This document shows positions 1,976 to 27,504 of a stretch of 34,395 bases of DNA, piece by piece. The DNA is from Terriglobia bacterium (lineage in GTDB: Bacteria > Acidobacteriota > Terriglobia > Acidiferrales > UBA7541). A program made the position numbers and the translations under genes. Each line of letters begins with the position of its first letter. Within the stretch, counting starts at the first letter, position 1. The stretch is taken from assembly GCA_020073485.1 (NCBI GenBank), contig JAIQFB010000037.1, positions 1 through 34,395 on the forward strand. Reading direction: 5' to 3'. Under the pieces are notes generated by a model, which saw nothing but the letters and a program-made list of their open reading frames with translations, was not told the origin of the DNA and did no database searches.

Positions 1976-2097
1976 GAAGAAACTCCCCGTATCCAACGCC
2001 GACTAGGTTGAGGATGTGCCTATCTCTCAAGGCGAGAGGGCATTGTTTCATGAACGGTGATTATTCTACGATCGAAATCGCAGGGGTACGAATGAAG

Positions 2098-4433: not shown

Positions 4434-4494
4434 AGAAAGCACCATCCCTATGTCTAACCTTGTGTAAAACTACGCTGGCCAGGACCTCGGCTGC

Positions 4495-4510: not shown

Positions 4511-4663
4511 TCAGCGATCGCCGGCCAATCGTGTGGTGGGAGGGTTCCTTCCTAAGATTGGGTGTAGAGTCAATTTTCGACAAGCACGGGGTAAGCACTG
4601 CCTCAAGTGTGATATTTTCAGTTTCTACACCAGTGAACTCCACTGGGAAGACTCAAGAGCAAC

Positions 4664-6277: not shown

Positions 6278-6340
6278 CAGGATGCTGAAGAATTCTTACA
6301 ATTTTGTGGAGCCCTCTACCTTCATGCTGGGATCGCACCC

Positions 6341-7084: not shown

Positions 7085-7142
7085 TCTCCAGGATGTTTCG
7101 TTTGCCAAGAAGCATGCCCTGCTGGAACTCCACCGCACATGT

Positions 7143-7604: not shown

Positions 7605-7720
7605 GGCAAGTCGCTCCTTTGCTGTGGCAAATCCTCCCTCATTGCCTTCCTGTATCTTCTCAACTTGTGTTGTGATGAGCCGTTCCCTATTTGCTCCTCA
7701 ACTATCGAATCAACCATAAC

Positions 7721-8083: not shown

Positions 8084-8248
8084 GCGTTACACCTCCTTGG
8101 CGCTAGGAGCCGATCCTTATTAATTATTCCGTGTTCGCACAGGCCGACGTTGCTCGCGGATTCATCTGCCGCAGAACATCCACACGTTCGTCCACGTGGC
8201 ACGTGACACGGCTGATGGCATATTTACTTCCTTCCCGATCCCAAAAGA

Positions 8249-8264
8249 TGTGATGAGCCTCACA
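8249..8264 (+). promoter_or_regulatory. perfect CRP-type palindrome upstream of the acyl ligase fusion
   Basis: TGTGATGAGCCTCACA matches TGTGA-N6-TCACA at all ten positions. On the plus strand TAAAAA (8286-8291) starts 29.5 bp from its centre, giving a predicted transcript start near 8298. This puts the GTG at 8298 at or before +1 and favours ATG 8334 as translation start. On the minus strand TAAATA (8226-8221) is 30.5 bp from the centre, so the site may serve both directions. Confidence 0.6.
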
Positions 8265-8333
8265 GAGACCGGACCACATCTGGGATAAAAAGCACACGTG
8301 GGGGAGTCTATTCGGTTACTCGCAGAGCAGGGC

Positions 8334-10811
8334 ATGTCGAACCATCCCGAATCACGGTCACGCTCTCGTCAGAACCTCGCAGACCTATTCTGCGAGTTCT
8401 CCCAATCTCCGGACGAGTTTATTGAGTACGATAATGGGTATCGCAGTTGGAAATACACGTACATAGAAGTGGCGCATGCCGCGCGTCACTTTGCGATGCG
8501 GCTGGACAAACACAAGGTTCGCAAGGGCGACAAAGTCATCTTCTGGTCTGAAAACCGCCCCGAATGGGTTGCGGCATTCTGGGGCTGCATCCTCTCCGGT
8601 GTCATCATTGTCCCAATCGACTACCGTACGTCACTGCGTTTCTTGCGGCACGTTCAAGAGATCGTCGATGCTCGCCTCATCCTGATTGGGGAGGAAGTTC
8701 AGTTGAGCCCGTCGGACCGCCAGCTGCCCGCATGGCGACTCTCGGAACTCGAGTGGTCCGATATGAACTGCGAAGCGCCTTCTGTTCGCATCGGGAGGGA
8801 CGATATCGCTGAAATCGTGTTCACCTCGGGTGCTACCGGAGAGCCGAAGGGAGTCCTTATCACGCACGGAAATATTCTGGCCAATATTGTGTCACCAGAG
8901 CAGATTGTTTCCAAGTACGCCAAATGGTTTCGACCATTCTTTCCCGTGCGTTTTCTGAGCCTGATCCCACTGAGCCACATGTTCGGGCAGGTGATCACGC
9001 TCTTTATTCTGCCACTCATTCCTGGAGTAGCGGTCTTCATGCGTGGGTATAGCCCGCACGAAATTGTGCGGCAAATCCGCACCCGGCGTATATCCGTAGT
9101 GGTCGCAGTCCCAAAGATCCTCGAGGTCCTCAGGAAACAAATTCTGCGCCAATTTCCGGAAGCCGCACATTTACCCCAGGTTAAATCGCATTGGGTATGG
9201 CGCTGGTACTACCACCGCTGTATACATTCCTCCTTCGGATGGAAGTTCTGGGCATTCATCGTCGGTGGAGCGCCGCTTGCCAAAGAGCTGGAAGAATTCT
9301 GGTCCGGCCTCGCATTCGCTGTAGTTCAAGGCTACGGTCTCACCGAGACGGCACCCCTCGTTGCATTCAACAATCCATTCGATACCAAGGAAGGGACTGT
9401 CGGCAAGCCTATAGCAGGGGTAGAAATCAAGATCGCACCAGATGGTGAAATCCTAGTGCGCGGTGAAAGCGTGACGTCAGGCTACTACCAAGCTTCCGCT
9501 GAGACTATGTCCGCGTTCGCGGGCGGCTGGTTTCACACGGGTGATCTTGGATCCTTTGATGATGCTGGGAACCTGATCATTCGAGGACGCAAGAAGGAAA
9601 TGATCGTCACCCCGGAGGGCTTAAAGGTCTTCCCCGAGGACGTGGAAGCGGTGCTAAATGAGATTCCAGGAGTCCGAGAATCCGCGGTAGTAGGCAGTGG
9701 ACGCGTGCATGCGGTGCTAGTACTTGAGGATATCGGTGACCCCAACGAAGTCGTCCGCCGTGCCAATTTACAACTCGAAGATCACCAGAAGATTCGCAGT
9801 GTTTCCATTTGGCCTGGAGAGCGGCTGCCGCGTACGGAAGGCACACAGAAACTAAAGCATGGCGAGATTCAAACGTGGGTCGAGAGTGGCACTTCAGCGC
9901 CAACGACATCAAGCGGACAGGAGATGATCGATCTTCTCCGAAGATATGCTCCAGACCGCGCCATCACGCCGAACACGACGTTAGACGAACTGGGACTAAG
10001 CTCTCTCGACCGGGTGGAACTCATGATTGACTTGGAGCAGCACTATGACACCAGCATCGACGAATCGCTCTTGACTGGCGCGCAGACGGTTTCAGCGCTG
10101 GCTGCAATCGGCATGCCTCCCAGCGCCTCCGTATTCCCCACATGGAACCGCGTTTACCTGGCGAAAGTGATTCGCAATGTCGCGTTACCGACAGTTTGGC
10201 TCCCCCTCACTCGGCTGTTCGCGCATGCCCGCATCTCCGGTCGCGAACATTTGGCCTCTCTGCGAGGACCTGTTATCTTCGCGCCAAACCATCAGAGCCA
10301 TCTGGATACGCCCTTGATTTTGTCTGCTTTGCCTGTGCGATACCGCTTCCGCGTTGCAGTGGCAATGTGGAAGGAGTACTTCGATGCTCACTTTTCGCCA
10401 GAGCGCCACACACGGTTCGAACGACTTGGGCATAGCCTAATCTATTGGCTCGTGGCGTTGTTCTTCAATGCGTTCCCGATTCCACAGACCGAAGCTGGCG
10501 CACGCCAATCGCTCAGGTACATTGGAGACTTGATTAGCGATAATTGGTCAATATTGTTCTTTCCAGAAGGTGAGCGTACTGAGGCGGGTGAAATTCACCG
10601 CTTCCAGCCCGGGATCGGCTTGCTCGCCGGAAGGCTGAGGTTGCCAGTGATTCCCATTCGGTTGCGGGGTGTGGAAAAAGTTCTCCACCGGCACCAGTGG
10701 TGGCCACGGTCCGGCAGCGTAGAGATTGTCTTTGGGGCACCACTGTACCTTCAGGGCGAAGACTATACAGCACTGGCCAAGCAGGTGGAGGACGCGGTCC
10801 TCGCGTTATAG
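8334..10811 (+). CDS. three-domain acyl-AMP ligase / acyl carrier / 1-acylglycerol-phosphate acyltransferase fusion
   Basis: 825 residues in three domains. (1) AMP-forming acyl ligase, about 1-520: FTSGATGEPKGV (163-174), GYGLTETAP (333-341), HTGDLG (401-406) and RGRKKEMIVTPEGLKVFPEDVE (417-438, adenylation loop and hinge). (2) Acyl carrier domain, about 525-595, with LGLSSLDRVEL (553-563) supplying the phosphopantetheine serine. (3) PlsC-type acyltransferase, about 635-825, with NHQSHLD (HX4D, 652-658) and FFPEGERT (about 742). The order suggests activation of a free fatty acid, loading on the internal carrier, and transfer to a lysophospholipid or similar acceptor, like Aas with a built-in ACP. 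GTG 8298 is a possible earlier start; ATG 8334 is preferred from promoter spacing. No signal peptide; probably membrane-associated through PlsC. Confidence 0.92.
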   Translation: MSNHPESRSRSRQNLADLFCEFSQSPDEFIEYDNGYRSWKYTYIEVAHAARHFAMRLDKHKVRKGDKVIFWSENRPEWVAAFWGCILSGVIIVPIDYRTSLRFLRHVQEIVDARLILIGEEVQLSPSDRQLPAWRLSELEWSDMNCEAPSVRIGRDDIAEIVFTSGATGEPKGVLITHGNILANIVSPEQIVSKYAKWFRPFFPVRFLSLIPLSHMFGQVITLFILPLIPGVAVFMRGYSPHEIVRQIRTRRISVVVAVPKILEVLRKQILRQFPEAAHLPQVKSHWVWRWYYHRCIHSSFGWKFWAFIVGGAPLAKELEEFWSGLAFAVVQGYGLTETAPLVAFNNPFDTKEGTVGKPIAGVEIKIAPDGEILVRGESVTSGYYQASAETMSAFAGGWFHTGDLGSFDDAGNLIIRGRKKEMIVTPEGLKVFPEDVEAVLNEIPGVRESAVVGSGRVHAVLVLEDIGDPNEVVRRANLQLEDHQKIRSVSIWPGERLPRTEGTQKLKHGEIQTWVESGTSAPTTSSGQEMIDLLRRYAPDRAITPNTTLDELGLSSLDRVELMIDLEQHYDTSIDESLLTGAQTVSALAAIGMPPSASVFPTWNRVYLAKVIRNVALPTVWLPLTRLFAHARISGREHLASLRGPVIFAPNHQSHLDTPLILSALPVRYRFRVAVAMWKEYFDAHFSPERHTRFERLGHSLIYWLVALFFNAFPIPQTEAGARQSLRYIGDLISDNWSILFFPEGERTEAGEIHRFQPGIGLLAGRLRLPVIPIRLRGVEKVLHRHQWWPRSGSVEIVFGAPLYLQGEDYTALAKQVEDAVLAL

Positions 10812-10890
10812 AGGAAACGCTGCCCAACACCATTTCGCATTTCGGGTCGCGCTAGAGTAAAGAAGGCGGTTCAGGCCTAGCAACTGGCAC

Positions 10891-11337
10891 TTAGAGACCT
10901 CCAAAGGTGAGGAACTCCGGTTCCAAAACTGCCTTGATTACGTCTCTCCGAGCAATGATCCCAATGAGTATATTGTCATTGGTCACAGGCACGCGGACAA
11001 TGCGGTTGTCTTCCAAGCTTTTCATCACATCCTCAAGAGAGGCATTTTGGTCCACTGTGATTGGGGGCCCGGTCATCACATCCGAAGCGGTTAAGTTCTC
11101 CAGCCACTTTCCCTCAAGCAACACACGGACGATATCGGCTTCTGTGATGACACCTATAACCCGGCCATCATCCGCGGCTACAGGCATTCCGCTGATTTGA
11201 TTGGTGACGAGCTGGCTTGCGACGTCCCGCAGAGAAGCGCGGGGAGTCGCGGCAAGAACAGATTGTTCCATGATGTCCTTGGCTGTCAGTGAGCTCTGAA
11301 CTGTCGTGCGTCGCACGGCGCTTGATTTTCCTGGCAT
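10891..11337 (-). CDS. CBS-domain pair protein
   Basis: 148 residues made of two CBS motifs: TAKDIMEQSVLAATPRASL...GVITEADIVR (about 18-75) and TASDVMTGPPITVDQNASLEDV...GIIARRDVIKAV (about 83-138). CBS pairs bind adenosine nucleotides and usually act as energy sensors; no enzymatic domain is attached. It begins with a basic, Ser/Thr-rich leader of about 15 residues. A palindrome at 11449-11464 with a properly spaced -10 hexamer lies about 110 bp upstream, so this gene is probably transcribed from there. It converges with the acyl ligase gene, leaving about 80 bp with no clear terminator. Confidence 0.93.
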   Translation of the reverse strand: MPGKSSAVRRTTVQSSLTAKDIMEQSVLAATPRASLRDVASQLVTNQISGMPVAADDGRVIGVITEADIVRVLLEGKWLENLTASDVMTGPPITVDQNASLEDVMKSLEDNRIVRVPVTNDNILIGIIARRDVIKAVLEPEFLTFGGL

Positions 11338-11448
11338 CGGTCTGACTCCTTTTTCAAATGCTTACGGGGACTGGCGATTTTTTCTCTCGTTTATTCCTGG
11401 TGAGAAATTCTCCCATTAGCAAATCTAGAGCGCGAACTGTCGAGAATC

Positions 11449-11464
11449 TGTGATGATCATCACG
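11449..11464 (-). promoter_or_regulatory. CRP/FNR-family site with -10 hexamer upstream of the CBS gene
   Basis: TGTGATGATCATCACG matches TGTGA-N6-TCACA at 9 of 10 positions and is a 14-base perfect palindrome internally. On the minus strand TAGATT (11427-11422; 4 of 6 with TATAAT) starts 29.5 bp from the centre, exactly where the -10 element falls when a CRP/FNR dimer is centred at -41.5. Predicted start of transcription is near 11415. Confidence 0.6.
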
Positions 11465-11594
11465 TTCTGGACATGGTGAAAAACCGCACCGGACGTTGGC
11501 CCAGACTGTCCATCGTTTGCCAAAGGATCGTTCATACATTTATTAGTTTGCCAATGGCGAATAAAGAAAGAGATGACAGGGGCCGCCATGCTCG

Positions 11595-12761
11595 TCAAGC
11601 CTGCGCATACTCTTTCTTCTCAGTCTCTCGGAGCCAGGCGCCCATCCCACCCGCCTCCTGCAGCCTGCGGGCAGCCTCGCCCGAGACGACTTCCACGGAG
11701 ACACTGTAGCGCCGGGCCAACTGGGGAAGAACCTCACGAAGCCTGACGACTTCCCGCTCACCTCCGCAAACCGGGCAAGCGGGGTCTTGCGTTCGGTCCG
11801 CCCACGAACATTTCAGGCACTGTCGCAGGCTTCCATCCAGCCCTTTGACGACCATCAGATTACGAATCCTCCCCTGCTGAAGTTGAACTAATGTCCCGTC
11901 GATCCCAAGCACAACGGCGCGGCTGTCGCCGAGCAGACTTTCCATCACCAATACCTTACGCTCGCGTTCGTGTTTTTCGACGAACGGTTCGATACGCTTC
12001 TCCAGTTCGGCTCGAGATTCGACCCAAACAAGATCCTTTTCGATCACAGTTGTTCTCTCCCGGAGCCCTGGCGGGAGTTCTTTCTGGATGCCCTTCGCCA
12101 TCTCGACCAAGCCGACCACAAACAATGAGTTCAAGTGTTCTGCCGCACACCAGCGATCGACATCCTTTGCGATCTGCTTTTGGTAGTGCTCATATTGAGC
12201 ATCGACGTGGTGCTGATAGACGTCGCGATTCGTCCCGTGAGACATCCGCACACCAGCAGCTCGCGAGACAGGGCCCATCTCCTTCACCTTCGATGGTTCT
12301 ATCCGGAATTCCTTCTCTTCGAGTTCGAGCATCTCCCCGAGCCACCAAAGGAAAATCTGCACGCGTTTTTGCCCTACGAGCACGATGCCGTGAGGCTTAT
12401 GTTCATCGAGCAGCCAAAATAATTGGGCGAGGGCTGGCGTGCCCCAGCGGACCTCATCTTCTACGTCCACCTGGAGTGGTATGAGTTCCCACGTGTCAAG
12501 TCCGGTGAAAATTACCACCCCGCGGCATTGTAGGGGGTGGTCCTGCAGATAGGCGCTGGCTCGCTGCACTTGCTCAAGGAAAAGTGGAAGGTCACCTGTG
12601 GGGACTGCTTGCGCGATCAACTTGGCCCGAGATTCGAACCGGTTCAGGTAGTCCGGCTTGAGTCCTCGAATCATTTGCTTTGTCGGGTTCGTGTCCAAAT
12701 AAATTGTCAAAAGCGGAACTGGGAGATCGGGAAGAGACTGAATGGTGCCAGATTTCAGCAT
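11595..12761 (-). CDS. eRF1-like (bacterial archaeo-eukaryotic release factor family) protein with zinc ribbon
   Basis: 388 residues. The N-terminus VPLLTIYLDTNP, the middle region (HGIVLVGQKRVQIFLWWLGEMLELEE) and the C-terminal part (LNSLFVVGLVEMAKGIQKELP, then KVLVMESLLGDSRAVVLG) follow the layout of bacterial eRF1/Pelota-like proteins. Near residues 315-335 a zinc ribbon with two pairs of cysteines (CLKC, CPVC) is inserted in the last domain, as in archaeal aRF1. The GGQ tripeptide that releases the peptide in true factors is absent; the matching loop appears to be SHGTNRDVYQHHVD. A role on stalled or hibernating ribosomes is plausible but inferred. The ribosome site GGAGG precedes ATG 12761. 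It lies 108 bp downstream of the GYD gene, same strand. Confidence 0.75.
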   Translation of the reverse strand: MLKSGTIQSLPDLPVPLLTIYLDTNPTKQMIRGLKPDYLNRFESRAKLIAQAVPTGDLPLFLEQVQRASAYLQDHPLQCRGVVIFTGLDTWELIPLQVDVEDEVRWGTPALAQLFWLLDEHKPHGIVLVGQKRVQIFLWWLGEMLELEEKEFRIEPSKVKEMGPVSRAAGVRMSHGTNRDVYQHHVDAQYEHYQKQIAKDVDRWCAAEHLNSLFVVGLVEMAKGIQKELPPGLRERTTVIEKDLVWVESRAELEKRIEPFVEKHERERKVLVMESLLGDSRAVVLGIDGTLVQLQQGRIRNLMVVKGLDGSLRQCLKCSWADRTQDPACPVCGGEREVVRLREVLPQLARRYSVSVEVVSGEAARRLQEAGGMGAWLRETEKKEYAQA

Positions 12762-12869
12762 AGGAACCTCCGCGCCTTAACGAACACAAGCTACCTTTTC
12801 ACGGCCCGGGAGGCGCAAATCCCGAGGCTCGCATATCAATGCAAACTTGCACATCCAACTGGACTTTGC

Positions 12870-13157
12870 CTACAACCTCGCCAGAAATTCCTTCCAAGGA
12901 GTTCCGACAAGCGTCTCCGTTGTCGAATGGCCATAAGCACGGATGATCATAGTCGCTCGCTCGACCTGTTTGGGGTCCTCGGTTTCTACGACGTCCACGA
13001 CATCGAAACGCCCGAGCGTGGCAAAGCTGTGTTTCCAGTTGAGTCCAGGACAATCTGTCTTGATCTTGTTTGAGACCGCTTCGGCTAATTTCTTGAAATC
13101 TCTCGGCTCTCGAAAAGCATCGGGTGAAAATCGGCTAAGAATTACATAAGTCGCCAT
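12870..13157 (-). CDS. GYD domain protein
   Basis: 95 residues. MATYVILSRFSPDAF at the start, then WKHSFATLGRFDVVDVVETED (the segment equivalent to the family's G-Y-D/G-R-F-D motif) and a tail ATMIIRAYGHSTTETLVGTPW, all typical of this small ferredoxin-like dimeric family of unknown function. ATG 13157 is chosen because GGAGGTG lies 7 bases upstream and the conserved N-terminus starts there; longer frames upstream are not supported. Probably the first gene of a unit with the eRF1-like gene. The CRP-type palindrome at 13505-13520 is about 350 bp upstream, implying a leader of about 310 bases if it drives this gene. Confidence 0.88.
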   Translation of the reverse strand: MATYVILSRFSPDAFREPRDFKKLAEAVSNKIKTDCPGLNWKHSFATLGRFDVVDVVETEDPKQVERATMIIRAYGHSTTETLVGTPWKEFLARL

Positions 13158-13504
13158 AGAACACCTCCGGGTGAAATGGATCGCCGTGGCGCAGATAAGT
13201 TCTTTCCAAAACTTGTAGGACAAATCGCATACAGTGGCCGGTGGCGAAGTGCTTCCGACAGTCGCGGGCCGATGCGTCGAAACTCTCCGCCGCTTAGCGT
13301 AGCTGACCACAACCACTGCCTAAGATCGAAGGATGGAAGACTTGTGACTGTTCAAACCCTGGCTGTCCCTTCGCTTTAGAAGGCCACCAAGGGAAATTTC
13401 TGTACTCTCGGATTTTTTCGATCCGTTGAGTCCCAGAAACTCTCTCCCATTGCCTTCTCCATCTTCCGATGTGTTTCTTCTATCCCACGAATCTGTTGCA
13501 AGGC

Positions 13505-13520
13505 TGTGATGTACATCACG
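13505..13520 (-). promoter_or_regulatory. CRP/FNR-family site upstream of the GYD unit
   Basis: TGTGATGTACATCACG matches TGTGA-N6-TCACA at 9 of 10 positions and is almost identical to the site at 11449 (only the central bases differ). On the minus strand TAGAAG (13482-13477; 4 of 6 with TATAAT) starts 30.5 bp from the centre, in the class II position. Predicted transcript start is near 13470. Confidence 0.58.
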
Positions 13521-13646
13521 AGTCCTGCCGAAGAATCGTTCCCTACGGTCAGCCACATACTCCCTCAGGATGGCTGAGCCCGAGCGATTCCAACGCTAGC
13601 GACCTGATATGGCAGCCGTCTTGTTGAACTCAATGTCCCTGACTGC

Positions 13647-13662
13647 GTCGGGCGGGCCCGAC
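13647..13662 (-). terminator. GC hairpin just after the rubrerythrin stop
   Basis: GTCGGGCGGGCCCGAC forms a 6-bp perfect stem with a 4-base loop, starting 5 bases after the rubrerythrin stop codon on the minus strand. No run of T follows, so it may act in 3'-end protection rather than as a full intrinsic terminator. Confidence 0.4.
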
Positions 13663-13667
13663 CCTTC

Positions 13668-14315
13668 TCAATTGACTTTTTCATATGCGTCTGCAGGCTT
13701 TCCACAGATTGGACACATTTCGTGGATAGGTTGTTGTTCTGAGGTGGCGCCGCAGGTGGGGCAGACGTAATACGTCCGGCTCTTTCCGCGCATGTGCTCC
13801 AGATTCTTCAAGGCTGCGGTAAGAAGCTTAAAGTGTTGCAGTTCTGCCGCGCGCGCATACTCAAATGTGCGGACCGCGTCCGTGTTTTCTTCAGCGCGTG
13901 CCTGGACAATGAACCTCGGATAAATCTTGTCGCCCTCGTAGAACTCAAACTTGTTGGCAGAGGATTCAATATTTTTCTGAGTAGATTGAGTAAAAAACTT
14001 CGCAAGTGTTGCTTGGGGCTCAGCTCCCATCTTCCGAATCACTTCCGCGTGGTTATTCATATGAATCTCTTCAGCCCGGGCCAACGCACGGAAGAGGCTA
14101 GCGACCTCCCCGTAGCCTTCCTGATCAGCTTTCTGCGCAAACGCAACATATCGGTTGTGCGCATTGCTTTCCCCTTCAAACCCTGACTGCAGATTCTGGA
14201 GTGTCTTGTTCACACTAGGCTTGGCCGCTGAAGAGACATCGCCCGCCACTACAACTAACAGCCCAGCGGTCAGCAGGATCAACGACAGTACGGTAATCTT
14301 CCTGAATGTTGCCAT
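13668..14315 (-). CDS. exported rubrerythrin (diiron + rubredoxin domains)
   Basis: 215 residues. Residues about 8-26 are a hydrophobic segment (VLSLILLTAGLLVVVAG) followed by DVSSAAKPS, read as a signal peptide or membrane anchor. The ferritin-like domain carries ligand motifs: FEGESNAHNRY (first Glu), ARAEEIHMNNH (E..H) and ARAEENTDAVRTFEYARAAELQH (E..E..H). The C-terminus is a rubredoxin-like iron site with CPTCG and CPICG. Rubrerythrin reduces hydrogen peroxide in anaerobes and microaerobes; here it would work outside the cytoplasm, which is atypical and would need a periplasmic electron donor. A strong ribosome site AAAGGAGG stands about 9 bases before ATG. It is downstream of CBS and Hsp20 genes on the same strand, after a 326-bp gap. 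Confidence 0.93.
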   Translation of the reverse strand: MATFRKITVLSLILLTAGLLVVVAGDVSSAAKPSVNKTLQNLQSGFEGESNAHNRYVAFAQKADQEGYGEVASLFRALARAEEIHMNNHAEVIRKMGAEPQATLAKFFTQSTQKNIESSANKFEFYEGDKIYPRFIVQARAEENTDAVRTFEYARAAELQHFKLLTAALKNLEHMRGKSRTYYVCPTCGATSEQQPIHEMCPICGKPADAYEKVN

Positions 14316-14641
14316 AGCCGTATTCCTCCTTTAATGCTTCTTTGCCACTTCCGCTCTTGGTCTTGTGCCGCTCGAAATGTCGTTCGGCTTGGCTCGTATC
14401 TATGTTTTAGGAATAGCTCCGTGTTTTGTGGAATCATTCCCACACTGATACTCTGTAGCCTGCAGACCACCAAAATGGATGTGACTCAACTCAACGCTTA
14501 TTGTGTTCAACCCACATCCAGACTATTTCGCGATACAGCTTTGGGTGAGACAAGCCACGCGAACTCGAGCTTCAATCAGCACTTGCGTGCTGATCCCGGT
14601 GTGACGCCCAGCGCGCGATCGCCAATGCTGCTCAACTCAGA
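14316..14641. other. 326-bp gap upstream of rubrerythrin
   Basis: Contains a perfect 8-bp inverted repeat, ATCAGCAC-TTGC-GTGCTGAT, at 14575-14594, 48 bases after the stop of the CBS gene and possibly its 3'-end hairpin (no T-run follows). Also an 18-base near-palindrome at 14427-14444 (TGTGG...CCACA) about 110 bp upstream of rubrerythrin; its half-site spacing differs from the TGTGA-N6-TCACA sites. No convincing coding frame. Confidence 0.4.
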
Positions 14642-15130
14642 TTAAGCCGCAGCGGCCTTCTGCTGTGCCGATCGCAGAGGTTTTGGCGCATAAAGGCTCT
14701 TCAGAGTATTAACGACATCCTCGAATGACAATTCGGAGTCTTTCTTGATTAGTTCTGTCTCGGTGCGCAAGACGACGTCGTCTATCGAGAGTATCCCCTG
14801 AAGCTTGCCTGCAGCGTCGATTACGGGCAAACGCCGTACTTTTGCCTGGGCCATCGTCGCCAATGCATCACGTAGGTCATCATCCGGTTTACATGCGATG
14901 ACTTTGCCGGAGGCTACCTCGCTCACTGTCATGTCGCTCGGCAGCCTGTTCCGTGTACCTAAAGCAACGCAGATGTCGCGGTCCGTGACCAAGCCAACGA
15001 CCTTTTCCTTAGAATCCACAATGGGAAGGATTCCACAGTTTTGTCGCCAAAGGATTTCCACAGCAGCTGCCAAGTTCGTCTGCGGACTGCAATAAGCGGG
15101 CGGCTTCGCCATAATGTCTGTAACTTTCAT
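14642..15130 (-). CDS. CBS-domain pair protein
   Basis: 162 residues with two CBS motifs: MKVTDIMAKPPAYCSPQTNL...GLVTDRDICVALG (about 1-70) and TVSEVASGKVIACKPDDDLRDAL...GILSIDDVVLRTE (about 75-130), then a helical tail rich in Lys/Ala. This tandem form probably senses adenine nucleotides. ATG 15130 is preferred: AGGAG lies 8 bases upstream and the CBS fold starts immediately. A longer reading frame reaches 15193 without support. It lies 135 bp downstream of hsp20 and is likely co-transcribed with it. Confidence 0.93.
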   Translation of the reverse strand: MKVTDIMAKPPAYCSPQTNLAAAVEILWRQNCGILPIVDSKEKVVGLVTDRDICVALGTRNRLPSDMTVSEVASGKVIACKPDDDLRDALATMAQAKVRRLPVIDAAGKLQGILSIDDVVLRTETELIKKDSELSFEDVVNTLKSLYAPKPLRSAQQKAAAA

Positions 15131-15265
15131 CGTCTTTCTCCTTTTCTCATAGAGGTCATTGTTTTCGTAGGGTGGAGGCGTGCCCCAGGCCATTGTGGCC
15201 AGAACACCATGGACATGATCCAGTCTCCATTTCCTAGATCTGCCTGTTATCCGAGGACCGGCGCA

Positions 15266-15790
15266 CTACGCGGCTTTGGCGTGAATCCGGACACTTCGTG
15301 ATTTAGCGACTTTGGGCATTGTCAACGCCAGGACGCCGTTCTTCAGTGTGGCGGTGACTTTATCCGTTTCGACTTCCTCGGGTAGGTCCACAACACGCAA
15401 GATTTGATCGCATCCCGTCTCGGAGTAGACGGTCTTGCCCTTCTTCTCCTTCTTGCTTGTCTCTCGCTTGCCGCTGATGGTCACGCGGCGCGGCTCAACG
15501 TTGATTTCCAGGTCCTTTTCGTCAAACCCAGGAAGCTCGGCCTGCACATCGAGCGACTCTCCGGATTCGGCGAGCTGGATGTGAACGGGATGGAGAAATT
15601 CTCTCTCGGCCTTTAGCCAGTCATCCAGTTCGCGGCCGAAAATACGGCCGTTTCCTTCAAAGATTTCAAAAGCCCTCTTGTTGATTCGGTCGAAGATATC
15701 ATCCATCCGATCAAGCAGACTCTCGAACTTGACCGGCTTGAGTGCCGAACGTTCCTCAGCGCGTTGTACTGCAAGGGATTTCTCTGACAT
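15266..15790 (-). CDS. Hsp20 / alpha-crystallin family small heat-shock protein
   Basis: 174 residues. ATP-independent holdase. N-terminal helical arm (about 1-70, with the repeated FDRINKRAFEIFEG pattern), then the alpha-crystallin domain: VDVQAELPGFDEKDLEINVEPRRVTISGKRE, a charged loop (ETSKKEKKGK), and the ending LKNGVLALTMPKV, the classic G-V-L motif. The C-terminus SRSVRIHAKAA carries an I-x-x-like tail. The N-terminal arm is longer than in minimal Hsp20s and resembles those of DUF2934-linked acidobacterial types. A ribosome site GGAGGCG is about 8 bases before the ATG. The CRP-type palindrome at 15931-15946 lies about 140 bp upstream. Confidence 0.94.
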   Translation of the reverse strand: MSEKSLAVQRAEERSALKPVKFESLLDRMDDIFDRINKRAFEIFEGNGRIFGRELDDWLKAEREFLHPVHIQLAESGESLDVQAELPGFDEKDLEINVEPRRVTISGKRETSKKEKKGKTVYSETGCDQILRVVDLPEEVETDKVTATLKNGVLALTMPKVAKSRSVRIHAKAA

Positions 15791-15930
15791 TGGGGTATCG
15801 CCTCCTGCTTTCGCTCAGCGCCGGCCTCGGTTCAATCGGCCATATCAGCCCAGTCTTCCAGCACGATTTGGCAGGATTTCCGATGGCCAGCGCCCTGGTT
15901 AACACAGTCGCAAACGACAAGAAATAGCAC

Positions 15931-15946
15931 AGTGATGCGGATCACA
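15931..15946 (-). promoter_or_regulatory. CRP/FNR-family site upstream of hsp20
   Basis: AGTGATGCGGATCACA matches TGTGA-N6-TCACA at 9 of 10 positions. On the minus strand the nearest hexamer is TGTGTT (15906-15901), 32.5 bp from the centre, a weaker and less well-spaced -10 than at the other sites. Confidence 0.48.
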
Positions 15947-15976
15947 CCCATATGTGCTCGCGGAGAGCTGGAAAGG

Positions 15977-16165
15977 TCACTTCCTTTTAATCTGGAATCC
16001 TGCGCCGCTGCGACCGAGCAGCCCTGAGATTTCACCCGCACTCACCAGTTCTGTACGCGACCGGCCCAGCGCCTCGTCGAACGTACGGTAACCGCCTTTC
16101 GAGGAGGACACGTCAAGAGAAGAGATCGGACCGAAAACAATCGGCTCACGGGAGAGAACTTTCAT
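15977..16165 (-). CDS. possible small hypothetical protein
   Basis: A 62-residue frame starting MKVLSREPIVFGPISS and ending in a basic tail (FQIKRK). Codon third positions look fairly natural and the amino-acid make-up is protein-like, but I recognise no family, there is no clear ribosome site before the ATG, and it lies in a decayed stretch next to an integrase remnant. It may be part of an older gene. Confidence 0.22.
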   Translation of the reverse strand: MKVLSREPIVFGPISSLDVSSSKGGYRTFDEALGRSRTELVSAGEISGLLGRSGAGFQIKRK

Positions 16166-16230
16166 TCTCGGGTCGCCAACATCGCTACTCGGCACTGGGG
16201 CGCAAAGTAATTGCCGAGATAATACGCGCG

Positions 16231-16430
16231 CCACTTTTCCGACACGGCTGCGCGACACGGAATGACCAGCGAATTATTTGAAGCTGGTGTAGCTCCGACA
16301 GTTGTGCAGCGCCAAAGGCGATACAGTGGCTCGGATCACTCTGGGAATATACGGCCATGTGGTGGGAAATGCTCATCGCAATGCAGTCGAAGCACACGCT
16401 AAGAACGTAGAGAAGTACGCAGTGAATTGA
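16231..16430 (+). pseudogene. tyrosine recombinase (integrase) C-terminal remnant
   Basis: Pieces of a phage-type integrase catalytic domain are readable in different frames. Around 16231-16262 PLFRHGCAT resembles box II (LRHT.AT). At 16268-16315 SELFEAGVAPTVVQRQ matches the helix between box II and the tyrosine. From 16311 in another frame GDTVARITLGIYGHVV, NAHRNAVE and an AKNVEKYAVN ending supply the (I/V)YGHV segment with the nucleophilic tyrosine, ending at TGA 16430. At least two frameshifts separate these, and the arm-binding and core-binding domains and box I are gone. It points toward, and ends 67 bp from, the 3' end of tRNA-Lys, the typical position of an island integrase. Confidence 0.72.
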
Positions 16431-16497
16431 TTTCAATTGTAGTTGAGTTGCTGAATTGTTGGCGAGTCGCCTACAACATCAATGATTGCAACAGAAT

Positions 16498-16572
16498 TGG
16501 TAGGGGCGGTGGGGATCGAACCCACGACCTTCGGCTTAAAAGGCCGCTGCTCTACCACTGAGCTACGCCCCT
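16498..16572 (-). tRNA. tRNA-Lys (anticodon TTT)
   Basis: Read on the minus strand it folds as a cloverleaf: acceptor stem AGGGGCG/CGCCCCT (7 bp), D arm GCTC-AGTGGTA-GAGC, anticodon loop CTTTTAA giving TTT, T arm with GTTCGATCC, discriminator A. CCA is encoded at 16500-16498. The first anticodon-stem pair is a G/A mismatch. TAAGAT (16594-16589) about 17 bases upstream could be its -10 element. The 3' end faces the integrase remnant. Between them, 16456-16476 carries a 21-base imperfect palindrome around GGCGA.TCGCC. Confidence 0.96.
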
Positions 16573-16722
16573 GCAATTGAATCTGAACATCTTACACGAA
16601 AAACTGCGAGTGCACATGCGCCGGTTCAGGCTCTGGGCAAGAAAGCGGGGGCTGGCGGCTCAAGCGATTTCACGTCTGCGGGCGAATGAAGGGCCCATGC
16701 TAGCATCAGCCGAGGGCTAAAC

Positions 16723-17601
16723 ATGCGCGAAGCGATGGCGTTCCTGATGATGCTCCCTCTGGTGAGCCTGCCGCTCGCGGCGGGGGAGGATGAGGAACGG
16801 GAAGACAAGCGGCTGGAAAACTGCGGCAAGATTCTCAACGAAATCCTGAATGAGCCAGAACACGGTATGCCGCAATTCATCCTCGACCGCTCTTACTGCG
16901 TGATCATGCTGCCGGGAACCAAGAAGGGCAACGGATTTATCTTCACCGGCGGATTTGGCGGCACATTTGAGCGCGGCGCGATGACGTGCCGGACAGGAGA
17001 GAAATTTGACGGCCCGTGGGGAGCCCCGACCATGGTGGCCCTGGAAGGAGTTACCTGGGGACTCGCGCTGGGGGGAGCTTCTACCGACATTTTGATTCTG
17101 GTCATGAACGACAAGGGCGCGAGTTCCATTCTGACCAGCAAAACAAAACTTGGCGGCGACGTGACCGCGACGGCCGGGCCCGTGGGCCGCGATGCGGCCG
17201 CGGAATCCGACGCCATGATGAAATCCGAACTTCTGACCTTCGCGCGGGCCAAGGGGCTTTTTGCAGGGGCACAATTGTCGGGATCCACTTTGTGCGCGGA
17301 CTGCCCTGCCAATGAAAAAATCTACGTCAAGAAGGTGGACACGAAGGACGTGGTGCTGCATGGCAGTGATGCTCCCCCCGCAGCCGCCAAGTTGCTGCTG
17401 GATACGCTGACCCAGCGATCCCCGAAGAGGCACGAGGGCGCGAAATCTTCGGACGATTCCGCGCCGAAACCTGCCGGAGACTCCGCTCCGAAGACGCCGG
17501 GCACTTCCGGCCAGCAGCCTCCGGCTGCTACCCCTTCCCAGCGAACGGGCAAGACCTATGTTCATGCTGAAGTTTTAACGCCCGGCTGCCATATTTGGTA
17601 A
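16723..17601 (+). CDS. exported SYLF (Ysc84-type) lipid-binding domain protein
   Basis: 292 residues. Signal peptide at about 1-20 (MREAMAFLMMLPLVSLPLAAG). Residues about 30-220 are a SYLF domain: ILNEILNEPEHGMPQFILDRSYCVIMLPG, GFIFTGGFGG, WGAPTMVALEGVTWGLALGGASTDILILVMNDKGA and AGPVGRDAAAES are the family's regular segments. Eukaryotic members bind phosphoinositides; bacterial ones are probably periplasmic or outer-membrane lipid binders. The last 65 residues are Pro/Ser/Ala-rich and of low complexity. Start chosen at ATG with GAGGG 8 bases before. First gene to the right of tRNA-Lys and markedly richer in GC than the genes to the left. Single-gene unit; a repeat hairpin follows. Confidence 0.9.
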   Translation: MREAMAFLMMLPLVSLPLAAGEDEEREDKRLENCGKILNEILNEPEHGMPQFILDRSYCVIMLPGTKKGNGFIFTGGFGGTFERGAMTCRTGEKFDGPWGAPTMVALEGVTWGLALGGASTDILILVMNDKGASSILTSKTKLGGDVTATAGPVGRDAAAESDAMMKSELLTFARAKGLFAGAQLSGSTLCADCPANEKIYVKKVDTKDVVLHGSDAPPAAAKLLLDTLTQRSPKRHEGAKSSDDSAPKPAGDSAPKTPGTSGQQPPAATPSQRTGKTYVHAEVLTPGCHIW

Positions 17602-17628
17602 AGAGCGCGCGGTGCGATTCGCGCTGTA

Positions 17629-17699
17629 GCGCCGGCGTCTCGCCGGCTGTTCTGTTTTAAATGTTAGATGAAAAGAAATCGCCGGCGGGAAGCCGGCGC
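17629..17699. repeat. GC-rich inverted repeat (dispersed intergenic type)
   Basis: The arms GCGCCGGCGTCTCGCCGGC (17629-17647) and GCCGGCGGGAAGCCGGCGC (17681-17699) are inverted copies with two mismatches in 19, separated by 33 AT-richer bases. It begins 28 bp after the SYLF stop and could act as its 3'-end structure. The look is that of the short mobile intergenic repeats common in acidobacterial genomes. Confidence 0.75.
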
Positions 17700-17866
17700 C
17701 ACGAAAATCCTGCCTACTTGGATCAGTCCCGCGAAGTTATTCCAATCCGCGCACTGACTCCACACAGGATGAAGGACGGCCCCTGCGCCAATTAGCAACA
17801 CTCCCGCGCGGAATTCCTTCGGGCTGGCCCACTACGCAAGCGCGCCGCAAGCGTTAAACCGCCGGT

Positions 17867-18214
17867 TCAGGCCAGCACTTTCGTGCGCGGCCGTTTGCGT
17901 TTCCATTCGTAGTCTTTGCGGAGCAAGGAAACATGCTTCTTAGTCTGCGTTTCGATTTCGGCGAAGGCCGCCTTGACGCACTTGCGGACGTCGGTGCCTT
18001 CGCCCGTCGCGTGCAAGGTTCCGGTCGGGAGTGAAAGATTCAGCGTGAACGAGTAGCTTTCCTTTCGCGGATGTTTTTCGATATTCCCATGCATCTGTAC
18101 CAGGTCGGGATCATAGCGGTTCAGCAGCTTCTTCAGCTTCACTACATGCAGATCCGTTTCCTTTTCGATTGGCTCGCGCCATTCCTCATTGCCATGCCGA
18201 ATCGCAAGTTTCAT
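17867..18214 (-). CDS. ribosome hibernation factor-like (HPF/S30AE-type) short protein
   Basis: 115 residues. Starts MKLAIRHGNEEW, has LKKLLNRYDPDLVQMHGNIEKHPRKESYSFTLNLSLPTGTLHATGEG, then DVRKCVKAAFAEIETQTKKHVSLLRKDYEWKRKR. This beta-alpha-beta pattern with a basic C-terminal helix is that of short HPF/YfiA proteins that bind the 30S decoding centre, and it lacks the dimerising C-terminal domain of long HPF. ATG 18214 is chosen since GGAAAGG precedes it by about 7 bases and the fold begins there; the frame is open further to 18457 without homology. Monocistronic, 166 bp from the zinc-ribbon gene. Confidence 0.75.
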   Translation of the reverse strand: MKLAIRHGNEEWREPIEKETDLHVVKLKKLLNRYDPDLVQMHGNIEKHPRKESYSFTLNLSLPTGTLHATGEGTDVRKCVKAAFAEIETQTKKHVSLLRKDYEWKRKRPRTKVLA

Positions 18215-18380
18215 GGGATGACCTTTCCGGGGAAGAGTTCGTAGCGGGTTCGAGTGGGCGGCACATGCCACAGACTCAACTGCAATTTCAGAATAGCAAT
18301 TCCGGAAGGCGGTTGCAAACGGCACTTCCGGATGACTTTCCTGAATGGAAAATCCCCGCGGGAAAACCGTGAAGAGCGGC

Positions 18381-18839
18381 TTATTTTTTGAACAGATTTT
18401 CAAACGCCTGGCGGGCATCGAGCGGCCGCGAAGGTCTTTCCGGAGAAGCCGGCGCATTGGCCGCGGGCGCCGACGGCGCCGTATCCTTCTCGATAGTGGT
18501 GCGGAATTCGTAGAACGTGCAATCGTTTCGCTGGTCTTTTCGCGCGATGCGCTCGGGCACGGGCTTCATGCATTCAAAACGCGCGGCGGTATCGAAATAG
18601 GCGCACTGCTTGCAGGAGTGCAATTCATACGCGCATTTCGGGCACTTGCCTTTCGGGTCGAAACCCTGCTGCAGCACCGCGCCGCAGTTGGAGCAGCGGG
18701 CGCGCGTGATGGTGCCGACCATGCGCGGCGTGCGCGGTCCGATTTGATCCTGTCTCGGGTGACCTTCCGGCGGACGCCGCTCTTTTTTCTGTGGCTTGTC
18801 CGCACTCATGTAGCCATGTTGCTTATACTTCCGCTCCAA
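18381..18839 (-). CDS. zinc-ribbon protein of unknown function
   Basis: 152 residues, likely starting at TTG 18839, because GGAGG stands 6-7 bases before it; the next ATG (18809) has no ribosome site. A basic, disordered head (about 1-48) leads to a cysteine cluster: CSNCG and CPKC form one zinc ribbon (about 49-70), followed by CKQCAYFD, C near 90 and NDCTFYEFR near 106, a second likely zinc site. The tail is Ala/Pro-rich with a final amphipathic stretch (ARQAFENLFKK). I do not recognise a named function; such proteins may bind RNA or protein. Same strand as its neighbours, with a 145-bp gap to hpnE holding a GC hairpin. Confidence 0.8.
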   Translation of the reverse strand: MERKYKQHGYMSADKPQKKERRPPEGHPRQDQIGPRTPRMVGTITRARCSNCGAVLQQGFDPKGKCPKCAYELHSCKQCAYFDTAARFECMKPVPERIARKDQRNDCTFYEFRTTIEKDTAPSAPAANAPASPERPSRPLDARQAFENLFKK

Positions 18840-18940
18840 AGAAAACCTCCAGGGGGATACTTAGATCATACTCTGAATTCCCGTACACAACACGCAAATA
18901 ACGCAATCTTACGAATTTTCTCTTAATTCGGGTCAGAATC

Positions 18941-18967
18941 GGGGGCCCGCGAAAGGCGCGCGGCCCC
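18941..18967 (-). terminator. GC hairpin downstream of hpnE
   Basis: Arms GGGGGCCCGCG (18941-18951) and CGCGCGGCCCC (18957-18967) pair with one bulged base around a 5-base loop, about 19 bases after the hpnE stop on the minus strand. No T-run follows, so it may end or protect the hopanoid transcript rather than being a standard intrinsic terminator. Confidence 0.4.
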
Positions 18968-18985
18968 TTGCGTCTTGCTTGCCTG

Positions 18986-20407
18986 TCAGGACTTGCGGGC
19001 CCAAAGACGCGCCAGACCTTCCGGCTTCAGGTCAGGCTGCAAGAATTTTCGCGGGGTTCCGGCATCGGCAAGAATCGCTTCCGCGGCCAGGTACCCGCTG
19101 CGAACCGCACCTTCCATGGTCGAGGGCCATCCGGTCGCGGTCCAGTCTCCTGCAAGAAATAATTTTGCCAGGGGGCTCTTCTGCGCGGGACGCCACTGGT
19201 CCGAGCCGGGCGCGGGCGAAAATGTCGCGGTCATTTCCTTGACGACGGTCCCCTTCACCAGCGTGGCCTCGCGCGTTGCAGGAAGGACGCCGCGCAGTTC
19301 TTCCAGGCAGAGGGCGATGATTTCCTGGCGCGAACGCTGCGTCAATCCGTAGGACGCGCTGATCACCAACTGCAGGTATTGTCCGCTGTTTTCCCCGCCT
19401 TCGCCATACAATTGCGTCTTATTGAACACCCACTGCGTCGTCGAGTCCACCAGCGTGAGAAACGGCTCGCTCATCACGGGCCGGTCAAACCAGAGGTGAA
19501 CCCCGGTGATCGGAGAAGCCCGCAAATTTTTCAGATTTGAGAACACCGGCTCGCGCTCGGCCACGTCCGGCGGCAACAATTCGGGCAAGACGTCTTGCGG
19601 CACCGCCGAAAGATAATAGTCCGCCGTTTCGACCGAACCGTCTTCTCTCTCCACGCCCTCGACGCCGCCATCGGCAACCAGAAATCCGCGTACTCCCGCG
19701 CGCAAAATCACTTCCCCGCCCCGCTTGGTGATCGCTTCCTTGCAGCCGTCGTACAGATTGCCGAGCGGAACGCACGGGATCCCGATGCGATATCCGCTGC
19801 TGGTCGAAAGAAACGCTTTCCAGAACACGTCGATACCGTACTGCGCGTCGATGCGATCCAACTCTTCATCAAGCGCGCTGACCAGAATCACTTCCCAGAA
19901 TCGGCGGATGGCACGGTCGGTCTGCCTGTGTTTCCGCAGCCAGGCCAGCATCGAGATGCCGCCACCGGCGCTGCAAATATCCGCCGGGCGACCGCCGCTG
20001 CGCGCAATCGCCAGAAGCGCCGCGGCGATAGCGCGCTTATCGGCCCAGTCGAGCAACGGAAACAGCGCGAAGGACAGCGCCATGTGCAGGGGCGCGGGCA
20101 GCGGGGCGGCCTGCATCGAACCGCGCCGCCCATCCGGCGCCGCAAAATACAGGCAGTCGAAAAATCGAATCTTGTCCGTGGCGCCGGCTCTTGCGTAGAA
20201 ATCGGCGAGGTTTGTGCAGCAGCCCAGCGTGACGTGCTGGCAATTGTCCACATGCTCGCCGCCCGGCAACACGTAGGACGCGGCGCGGCCGCCCAGATGG
20301 GGCCGCTGTTCGAGCATACGCACGCGGAAGCCGGCTTCAGCCAGCGCGACGCCCGAGGACAGTCCCGCCAGGCCGCCGCCGATCACGATCACGTTTTTCA
20401 AGGACAT
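18986..20407 (-). CDS. hpnE: HpnE, hydroxysqualene dehydroxylase
   Basis: 473 residues. FAD enzyme that reduces hydroxysqualene to squalene, the third step of the HpnD-HpnC-HpnE route. The N-terminus has the dinucleotide motif VIGGGLAGLSSG (about 8-19) and E-Q-R-P-H-L-G-G-R-A, and near the end FLAGDWTATGWPSTMEGAVRSG closes the FAD site as in phytoene desaturase relatives. The start is fixed by the FAD motif beginning 7 residues in. It overlaps the 3' end of hpnCD by 71 bases, so its ribosome site lies inside that gene and translation is probably coupled. Last gene of the hopanoid operon. Confidence 0.92.
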   Translation of the reverse strand: MSLKNVIVIGGGLAGLSSGVALAEAGFRVRMLEQRPHLGGRAASYVLPGGEHVDNCQHVTLGCCTNLADFYARAGATDKIRFFDCLYFAAPDGRRGSMQAAPLPAPLHMALSFALFPLLDWADKRAIAAALLAIARSGGRPADICSAGGGISMLAWLRKHRQTDRAIRRFWEVILVSALDEELDRIDAQYGIDVFWKAFLSTSSGYRIGIPCVPLGNLYDGCKEAITKRGGEVILRAGVRGFLVADGGVEGVEREDGSVETADYYLSAVPQDVLPELLPPDVAEREPVFSNLKNLRASPITGVHLWFDRPVMSEPFLTLVDSTTQWVFNKTQLYGEGGENSGQYLQLVISASYGLTQRSRQEIIALCLEELRGVLPATREATLVKGTVVKEMTATFSPAPGSDQWRPAQKSPLAKLFLAGDWTATGWPSTMEGAVRSGYLAAEAILADAGTPRKFLQPDLKPEGLARLWARKS

Positions 20408-22319
20408 TATCCCGGGTAAGCCGCGCGAAGCGCGCGCGGGCGATGAACATCATTTTTTCCGTTTTGCTGAGACGCACGCGCTCGCCGAACACCGCGAAGT
20501 CGAGCAATTCCATGCGGGCAAGCAGCGCGCTGTACGTGTGCACCAGCAGCCAAAGTGCGCCGCGGCTGTCCGCGTCGATAAGGTCGAGGAACTCGGCGCA
20601 CTCTTCGTACAGCCGCCAGGCGCGGTCGGCTTCGTAGCGAAGAAGTTCGCGGACCCCGAGCGTGGCTTCGTTGCGCGAGAAATCCTCCGGCGAGACGCCG
20701 TACCGCGCGAGGTCTTCATCGGGAATATAAACGCGGCCGAGCGCGGCGTCCTCGCGGACATCGCGAATAATGTTCGTGAGCTGAAACGCCAGTCCAAGTT
20801 TCTCGGCGAGATCGAGCGCCCGTGGGTCGCTATAACCAAAAACGTGCGTGCAGGTCAGACCCACGGTTCCAGCGACGCGGTAGCAATATTCGCGCAGCCG
20901 GTCAAATGTCGGATAGGACTTGACGGTGAGGTCCATTTCCGCGCCGGAGATTAAGTCATGCAGGTAGCGCGCGGGCATATTGTAGCGGCGCATGGTATCG
21001 ACCAGGGCCGGCAGGACTTCCCGTTCGCCGTAAAGGGGTTCTCCAACGGGCTTCAGGCCCGTGCCCTCAAAAACCTGAGAACGGCCGGTGACCGCCGCGT
21101 CAAATGCGGCGCGCCACTTGGCCAGGCCGCGCTGTTTCGCCTCCACGTCCTCGCCTTCGTCGGCGACGTCATCGACCAGGCGCATGAAGGCGTAGAGCGC
21201 GGCGAGGCCGTCGCGCTTGGGCTTCGGGAGGAGATAGAAGGCGTAGTAGAAATTGCTGCGGGCTTCGCGCGCGATCTGGTGGCAAAGCTCGTACGAGCGC
21301 GCAACTTCGTTTGCTGCGCCGAGCGGGTCCGGCACCGTATGGGAAGTGAGATTCCCCCCTTCCACAATCGCGGGGCGCTGGGAAATGGCCGGAGATGGCG
21401 GCGCGGGCGAATTGTCGCGAACAAACAGGCGCTGAACCAGCGCCCGCACAAGCAACATCGCCTGCTTCGATTTCGGAATCGACGGCCGGCGATCGAGCGT
21501 GTTGTATCCGGCGGCCTCGATGGCATCCAGCACAGCGAGCCCGCCCCTACTGAACATCTCGATGTCCACGCGCATGGCGGAATCCAGGGTTCGGGCCAGC
21601 GGCAGGCCTTCTTGGAACAATTCGCGCGTTCGCGAGAGCAAATCCTTCATCAGCGAAACGTACCGCGCATCGAAACGGCGCGCGACGATGTCTTGTTCGC
21701 TCAAGCCGTGGGCCGCGAGGGCATCCAGGGGAATATAAATGCGGCCTTTCTCGATGTCGCGGGAAACGTCCTGCCAGAAATTCGCAAGTTGCAGCGCCGT
21801 GCACGTGGCGTCGGAAAGTCTTTGGCGCTCGGCGTCGCGATACCCGCACAAATACAAAACCAGGCGGCCTACGGGATTCGCGGAATAGCGGCAATAGCCG
21901 ATCATGTCATTCCAGGTGGGGTAGCGGTGCACGGTCTGGTCCTGGCGAAAGGCGATCAGCAGGTCGGAAAACGGTTCGATGGGGATGCTGCAGGCGGCGA
22001 TGGTGCCCTGGAGCGCGATAAAAACGGGATGCGATACCCGGCCCGCGTAGCATTCGCGCAGTTCCTGCTCCCACTCGCCTAGCAATTCAAGGGCCCGCGC
22101 GGGATCGGAAACTTCGTCGCCCAGATCGTCCGCCCATCGGCAATAGGCGTAGAGATTGTAAAAATGCTGGTGCAGCCGCCGGGGCAGCAGCCAGGAAACC
22201 ACGTTGAAATTTTCGTAATGGTGCGTGGCAAGCCAGCGCGTGTAGCGCTCGGCCTCGGTTACCGTACAGCCGGACGCGGGCACATTGCGGGAGATTTCGA
22301 GTTCAGAAGGATTTTGCAT
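20337..22319 (-). CDS. fused HpnC-HpnD squalene-forming synthase
   Basis: 660 residues joining two trans-isoprenyl synthase domains that are normally separate proteins. Residues about 15-285 are HpnC-like, with YCRWADDLGDE (first Asp-rich motif) and NFWQDVSRDIEKGRIYIP (second). Residues about 345-625 are HpnD-like, with FMRLVDDVADEGED and NIIRDVREDAALGRVYIPDEDL. HpnD condenses two farnesyl diphosphates to presqualene diphosphate, HpnC turns this into hydroxysqualene, and HpnE finishes. The two are joined by a Pro/Ser-rich linker (about 300-340). All four Asp motifs are intact. The last 23 residues (basic, NVLEKRDRDRRRPGG...) are encoded in the overlap with hpnE and are probably a tail without fold. 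The upstream dehydrogenase ends 60 bp before its ATG. Confidence 0.92.
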   Translation of the reverse strand: MQNPSELEISRNVPASGCTVTEAERYTRWLATHHYENFNVVSWLLPRRLHQHFYNLYAYCRWADDLGDEVSDPARALELLGEWEQELRECYAGRVSHPVFIALQGTIAACSIPIEPFSDLLIAFRQDQTVHRYPTWNDMIGYCRYSANPVGRLVLYLCGYRDAERQRLSDATCTALQLANFWQDVSRDIEKGRIYIPLDALAAHGLSEQDIVARRFDARYVSLMKDLLSRTRELFQEGLPLARTLDSAMRVDIEMFSRGGLAVLDAIEAAGYNTLDRRPSIPKSKQAMLLVRALVQRLFVRDNSPAPPSPAISQRPAIVEGGNLTSHTVPDPLGAANEVARSYELCHQIAREARSNFYYAFYLLPKPKRDGLAALYAFMRLVDDVADEGEDVEAKQRGLAKWRAAFDAAVTGRSQVFEGTGLKPVGEPLYGEREVLPALVDTMRRYNMPARYLHDLISGAEMDLTVKSYPTFDRLREYCYRVAGTVGLTCTHVFGYSDPRALDLAEKLGLAFQLTNIIRDVREDAALGRVYIPDEDLARYGVSPEDFSRNEATLGVRELLRYEADRAWRLYEECAEFLDLIDADSRGALWLLVHTYSALLARMELLDFAVFGERVRLSKTEKMMFIARARFARLTRDNVLEKRDRDRRRPGGTVLGRRAG

Positions 22320-22379
22320 GTTGCGCGGCCCGCCGGAGAACCCGGCGCGGCCCGAAAAACTCCGTGAGGACGCGGCCTC

Positions 22380-25329: not shown

Positions 25330-25333
25330 TCAA

Positions 25334-27495: not shown

Positions 27496-27504
27496 TTCAC
27501 TCTC

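Follow-up and report, generated by a model that had tools for sequence, protein, structure and literature searches.

Does a tRNA-Lys gene in the draft genome of a Terriglobia bacterium mark the edge of a genomic island, and are the stress and energy genes beside it the cargo of the element that integrated there? The window, that is, the whole stretch of DNA that was analysed (34,395 bp), is the entire contig C9 of this genome (G000, 46 contigs), and its base 1 is a contig end. The first-pass annotation had proposed both. We consider it very probable that this tRNA-Lys(TTT) gene is a site for a family of tyrosine-integrase elements, that the junction here is decayed, and that the left 16.5 kb is mostly a horizontally acquired mosaic with stress and energy genes. 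It is plausible, though unproved, that the gene set travelled here as cargo of this very element. The features of the window are summarized in Table 1.

Table 1. Features of the window, with positions counted from its first base
Feature	Position	Strand	Basis
Variable side: GC 54.9%, mean GC3 0.61 (14 genes); no far-end repeat found in it	1-16497		Composition, synteny
Malic enzyme	674-1996	-	Pfam/NCBIfam
Carbamate kinase	2098-3087	-	Pfam/NCBIfam
CobW-like protein, weak match	3084-4445	-	Pfam/NCBIfam
Formate-THF ligase, Mut7-C, PEBP, TonB-C, AMP-ligase/acyltransferase	4664-10811		Pfam
baeRF-type protein, homologue of Balon-like ribosome hibernation factors	11595-12761	-	PF18854, over cut-off
Rubrerythrin	13668-14315	-	Pfam
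CBS-domain protein	14642-15193	-	Pfam
Hsp20	15266-15790	-	Pfam
Integrase remnant, piece 1 (residues 379-403 of the G005 integrase)	16253-16327	+	tblastn; profile E 5.9e-4
Integrase remnant, piece 2 (residues 406-437 and stop, other frame)	16332-16430	+	tblastn; profile E 3.4e-7
Spacer of 67 bp, integrase stop to tRNA 3' end	16431-16497		Sequence; in 19 related loci, alignment end and tRNA are 71-136 bp apart
att core: final 23 nt of the tRNA gene, with further copies in relatives	16498-16520	-	Repeat searches
tRNA-Lys (anticodon TTT), CCA encoded; integration target	16498-16572	-	ARAGORN
Conserved chromosomal side: Ysc84, HPF-like (weak), Zn-ribbon-like (by eye) and hopanoid genes; GC 60.8%, mean GC3 0.72 (15 genes)	16573-34395		Pfam, synteny, composition

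The integrase survives as its last 59 codons, split over two frames and pointing at the CCA end of tRNA-Lys. Compared by tblastn with the 437-aa integrase of G005, a relative of the same genus (94% complete), the aligned span of piece 1 (16253-16327) is 60% identical and that of piece 2 (16332-16427) 62.5%, and the two pieces have a combined E of 2.9e-12. The stop codon occupies 16428-16430 and leaves 67 bp (16431-16497) to the tRNA, so the integrase gene adjoining the tRNA 3' end is present as a remnant 67 bp off. The initial description of integrase pieces in at least two frames, at this distance from the CCA end and facing the tRNA, was borne out by tblastn and by the sequence. Elsewhere in the window, the next-best matches of five integrase queries reach only E 0.008 or worse.

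Neither piece matches PF00589, Pfam names no integrase in them, and they do not contain a complete catalytic domain; the intact G005 integrase matches PF00589 at E 2.6e-19. Because Pfam is silent on both pieces, a related gene was needed as the yardstick, and in G005 an intact integrase gene occupies the equivalent position beside the same tRNA-Lys. The silence of Pfam would also be expected if there were no island at all and the pieces were a chance resemblance or the contig a chimera; the assembly is a draft, and a chimeric joint is possible between 15963 and 16253. However, the E value of the combined match, at the right place, on the right strand and in the right order, and a spacing like that of intact copies make this explanation highly improbable.

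The same integrase family recurs widely in relatives. At E 1e-25, the G005 integrase is matched in 46 of the 121 genomes searched, and 30 loci were taken, one per genome and including the query's own. At 19 of the 30 the integrase faces the 3' end of a full tRNA, convergently in every case and 71-136 bp from the end of the alignment; the targets are tRNA-Lys (9), Met (5), SeC (2), Gly (1), Leu (1) and Arg (1). The arrangement that had been called standard for integration into a tRNA 3' end is the one most of these loci have. Of the 11 remaining loci, eight match part of the tRNA-Lys 3' end over 20-26 nt, in one orientation or the other, and three match it over 10 nt or less. In a tree of 27 integrases, eight tRNA-Lys integrases fall in one supported half (100/99) together with one each of SeC, Gly and Leu and two untargeted rows, and the target thus follows the clade only loosely.

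Seen from the tRNA, tblastn of 28 tRNA-Lys loci gave an integrase-family match at E 1e-4 in 10, the window included; nine of the 10 point at the tRNA, and in G019 the match beside tRNA-Lys has the opposite orientation. A profile scan of stretches from 15 relatives added G003 and G022. By the two methods together, 11 of 29 tRNA-Lys loci, again with the window, have integrase-family sequence directed at the tRNA 3' end, and the other 18 have no integrase pointing at the tRNA (G019 being reversed and some flanks shorter than 100 bp). An integrase search of the genome contigs gave four loci, two of which (L179 and L180) have a 26-nt match to the tRNA-Lys 3' end adjoining the integrase. In the tRNA-Lys interval of G021 (L055:11669-14534), the integrase is followed by three overlapping tyrosine-recombinase ORFs, a series that we take to resemble the recombinase-in-trio arrangement.

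Composition changes at the tRNA. The best single change point by maximum likelihood is 16605, which confirms a step at about 16.5 kb; it lies 33 bp from the tRNA and was matched in 0 of 2000 permutations of 1-kb blocks. The GC3 difference between the two sides has p 1.4e-5 (14 genes on the left, 15 on the right). The left side is indeed the poorer in GC (54.9% vs 60.8%), as first proposed, but the ranges estimated by eye had overstated the step. Eleven other stretches of about 20 kb from G000, not randomly chosen (they were fetched for other reasons, and some are island-like), have a mean GC of 0.575 (SD 0.017); the left side is about 1.5 SD below this mean and the right about 1.9 SD above it, so that, measured against this sample, both sides are equally unusual in GC.

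Gene order also differs between the two sides. In the tRNA-Lys regions of 16 relatives, the HPF-like gene lies on the 5' side of the tRNA in 13 and HpnE in 11, and none of the left-side genes was found 3' of tRNA-Lys, within available 3' flanks of 92 bp to 10.2 kb, except for one 38% TonB hit in G033. Two marks of a tRNA island are thus present, as the left side is absent at the same site in relatives and differs in composition from its flank; the comparison of synteny came out as predicted, conserved to the right of the tRNA and not to the left. In the largest matching blocks, the right flank is 87% identical to G005 and 73-76% to G001-G004. Its last 220 bp (34176-34395, the right contig end) are identical to the beginning of contig C5, so C5 probably continues the chromosome. 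The broken genes noticed at the left edge are real to the extent that a reading frame there is truncated by the contig end and has an early stop codon (by eye); from its motif, we presume it to be PRPP-synthase-like.

Several other observations concern these flanks. Interspersed repeats with many copies in G000 and the genus lie at 31858-31943 and 31769-31823, and 31855-31945 folds into a hairpin with almost perfect pairing (z -10.1; none of 200 shuffled sequences was as stable); a further short interspersed repeat at 17625-17713 is matched many times in G002 and G005. For G001, the match beside the HPF gene (C91:6196-6282, L152) takes in the tRNA-Lys 5' start and the DNA upstream but no more of the tRNA, and tRNA detection gave none within the first 16 kb of the contig. 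A block found within 10 kb of tRNA-Lys in G006, G009 and G027, presumably hpt, rpiB, deoC, PP2C and lysA, was considered as a candidate flank for an empty site and rejected: in G000 it is on C17, where about 27 kb upstream is collinear with G005, and its adjacency to tRNA-Lys is therefore unusable for this genus.

In addition to the genes listed in Table 1, the left-side set has a GYD protein and a second CBS protein (Pfam and NCBIfam), and its CobW-like protein is, we assume, cyclic-2,3-DPG-synthetase-like. The baeRF-type protein scores 61.5 bits against a cut-off of 480, and 29.1 against 320, with the NCBIfam models of the hibernation factors MSMEG_1130 and Rv2629; judged by its sequence, it is a homologue of these factors and no member by the curated cut-off. 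Two of these genes are present in G000 a second time as diverged copies, the malic enzyme on C29 and baeRF on C36, and a second baeRF/Hsp20/CBS group is located on C36 (L093:13080-16630). In G009, homologues of Mut7-C, baeRF, GYD, carbamate kinase and the CobW-like gene occur together (L106:1596-8973), and the group stops about 300 bp short of a tRNA-Arg 3' end. A general link between baeRF genes and tRNAs is not claimed; 12 of 16 baeRF stretches elsewhere, one as short as 3 kb, have no tRNA. Hsp20 is given among the common neighbours in the Balon gene neighbourhoods described in PMC10901736, so the grouping of baeRF with stress genes is not itself new.

The left side is well matched only in G003, where identity is 76-92% across the eight strongest matches and 84-92% in six of these. 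The G003-like stretch that includes Hsp20 extends to 15963, less than 300 bp from the integrase remnant. In G005, which is the closest relative and nearer than G003, the left genes are almost missing: it has just three partial matches (malic enzyme, 69%; PEBP, 72%; positions 262-499, 82%), G001 has two, and G002 and G004 have one each; the absence of left genes in G001 (89% complete), G002 (72%) and G004 (71%) is weaker evidence than in G005 because of their lower completeness.

At fourfold sites, the 11 of 14 left genes with a counterpart in G003 have a median identity of 0.73 (range 0.49-0.91) vs a median of 0.51 and a maximum of 0.63 for 45 control genes from the right side, C29, C17 and C5, the G003 stretches with left genes having been fetched for matching and the control regions for other reasons. 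Nine of the 11 exceed the control maximum (p 9e-6), and the AMP-ligase gene (0.49) and rubrerythrin (0.54) are at control level. Carbamate kinase, the CobW-like gene and CBS1 have no counterpart in the G003 stretches searched. With G005, the median for 49 control genes is 0.68. The filter behind this comparison kept ORFs with a protein identity of 55% or more in which codon positions 1 and 2 are more conserved than fourfold sites, and among hits that covered half the gene the most similar one was used; its rules were set after a first comparison that had included wrong-strand ORFs (fourfold identity above 0.9, protein identity near 50%) and had given p 0.05. An earlier hand-picked version with 10 left and 8 control genes gave p 0.005. 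The C36 copy of baeRF is also unusually close to a G003:C2 gene (0.70), so DNA outside the window, too, can be more similar to G003 than expected. From their distribution and fourfold-site identity, most left genes look horizontally acquired, and transfer between the G000 and G003 lineages, or a common source, explains this better than inheritance.

If the left genes had come in with the integrase, where is the other end of the element? In relatives, the 3' end of tRNA-Lys is often repeated. A search of 121 genomes for its last 23 nt, with at most one mismatch, found at least one copy in 67, all of the same family, and two or more in 37 of the 67, some one-mismatch copies possibly being other whole tRNAs (inspected only in fetched stretches); the reversed pattern, used as control, was found in none of the 121. 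Two or more copies occur on 17 contigs, on the same strand in 16 and on opposite strands in one (G098:C29). Apart from full 37-nt matches, every tRNA-Lys 3' match in 27 stretches examined is 19-27 nt long.

Repeat copies bound 13 intervals of 1.5-19.1 kb in 10 genomes, and integrase-family sequence at E 1e-3 is present in eight of these and absent from five. Pfam results for 18 of the 64 interval ORFs (at least 120 aa; six genomes) include multihaem cytochromes in G018, a TrwC relaxase in G102, RHS and TPR proteins in G094, outer-membrane, ABC and glycosyltransferase proteins in G065 and an RND pump in G071; two G103 proteins had no Pfam match, and the ORFs of the G035 interval we read as amino-acid catabolism. 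By these Pfam names, interval content is varied. No homologue of a left-side window gene was detected in the 13 intervals (tblastn, E 1e-5), which counts against a dedicated stress element. In G003, a 1.3-kb stretch between two 23-nt copies (L141:14483-15784) contains one methyltransferase-like ORF (by eye).

Within the window itself, no tRNA 3' repeat was found besides the tRNA, at up to three mismatches and over the 16.5 kb to its left. The G003 homologues of the left genes are scattered over C1, C2, C10, C24 and C45 and, as far as fetched, are not on the tRNA-Lys contig C70; on C45, two tRNA-Lys 3' copies are found at distances of 3.0 and 4.3 kb from formate-THF ligase, in a stretch with no integrase trace. 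The remnant could then be an old integration scar, with the stress and energy set having arrived otherwise (by homologous exchange, transposition or rearrangement), and the tRNA would be a boundary without the set being integrase cargo. The several G003 contigs, the lack of a far-end repeat, the 13 intervals without left-side genes and the uneven fourfold identities are all consistent with this, but it is at the tRNA itself that composition changes, and the G003-like stretch containing Hsp20 nearly reaches the remnant. We give this alternative somewhat less than an even chance.

The second tRNA 3' copy that the first-pass annotation had proposed to look for, missing from the window, does exist once in the genome, on a contig not linked to C9. 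This copy, the only other one found in G000, is at C39:187225 (27 nt with one mismatch) and has its own integrase remnant pointing at it, 74% identical to the G035 remnant; the 17.4 kb beyond it is matched in five same-genus genomes by short pieces only (402 bp or less). Together with the same-strand tandem copies known in relatives, this suggests a tandem array, in which the left side of the window would be part of an element A reaching from tRNA-Lys to C39:187225, with an element B beyond the copy. However, C9 and C39 are not joined, and the element-side 2.5 kb of C39 carries a different, 450-aa integrase and a tRNA-Ser; we hold the array as a tentative reading, with the balance against it. 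The start of that integrase ORF (L010:1601-2953) overlaps the 3' end of the tRNA-Ser(GCT).

In short, the tRNA-Lys is a real boundary, and its junction with the left side is what remains of an integration site used by a recurrent family of tRNA-Lys elements. The composition step, the synteny on the right side only and the C39 repeat sustain the island boundary; the status of the stress and energy set as cargo of this element was not sustained, given the missing far-end repeat in the window, the scatter in G003 and the absence from the 13 intervals. In the sequence of events that we favour, an integrase would have fused the element to the tRNA gene at its final ~23 nt, rebuilding the tRNA 3' end (the chemistry is inferred), which would put the element on the 3' (left) side and the integrase stop about 70 bp from the tRNA. 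The left genes may have entered through this site. Since then, the integrase gene has shrunk by about 86% and is no longer in one frame, leaving a fossil junction that is probably unable to excise; the element is unlikely to be mobile unless an integrase is supplied in trans. What stands to the left today would be mostly mosaic DNA of horizontal origin with stress and energy genes.

The analysis connects an integrase family with a 23-nt core and numerous repeat-bounded intervals at one recurrent integration site in an acidobacterial family, with stress and energy genes on its variable side whose sharing between species is out of step with the chromosome. A bolder reading, which we regard as unlikely, is that this tRNA-Lys hotspot serves across the family as an exchange point moving dormancy and stress modules, including Balon-like hibernation factors, between species; if true, dormancy capacity would be horizontally tradable. 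Our search found no literature linking a ribosome hibernation factor, a genomic island and an integrase, and we make no wider claim of the link being unpublished.

A genomic island of a familiar kind is well supported here. The site resembles tRNA-integrated islands with tyrosine integrases in the integrase at the tRNA 3' end, the core repeat, the variable side, the tandem copies in relatives and the decay, and differs from them in that the integrase is a 59-codon fossil, the window has no far-end repeat and the left side is a mosaic. In actinomycete ICEs of the pSAM2 type, the integrase points toward the tRNA 3' end. The likeness to these elements is in that orientation; unlike them, the window has no transfer gene among its Pfam-named genes, and a TrwC relaxase occurs in the G102 interval. 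The candidate islands described for Candidatus Solibacter usitatus are likewise acidobacterial and low in GC, with tRNA genes and integrases (PMC3174227); those were called by IslandPath from composition, whereas the site here is marked by repeats, an integrase family and synteny. Finally, the neighbourhoods of Balon-type genes, as described in PMC10901736, share with this locus a baeRF-type gene near Hsp20 and other stress genes; in contrast, the baeRF-type gene here is found on a tRNA site's variable side, and its sharing between species does not keep step with the core.
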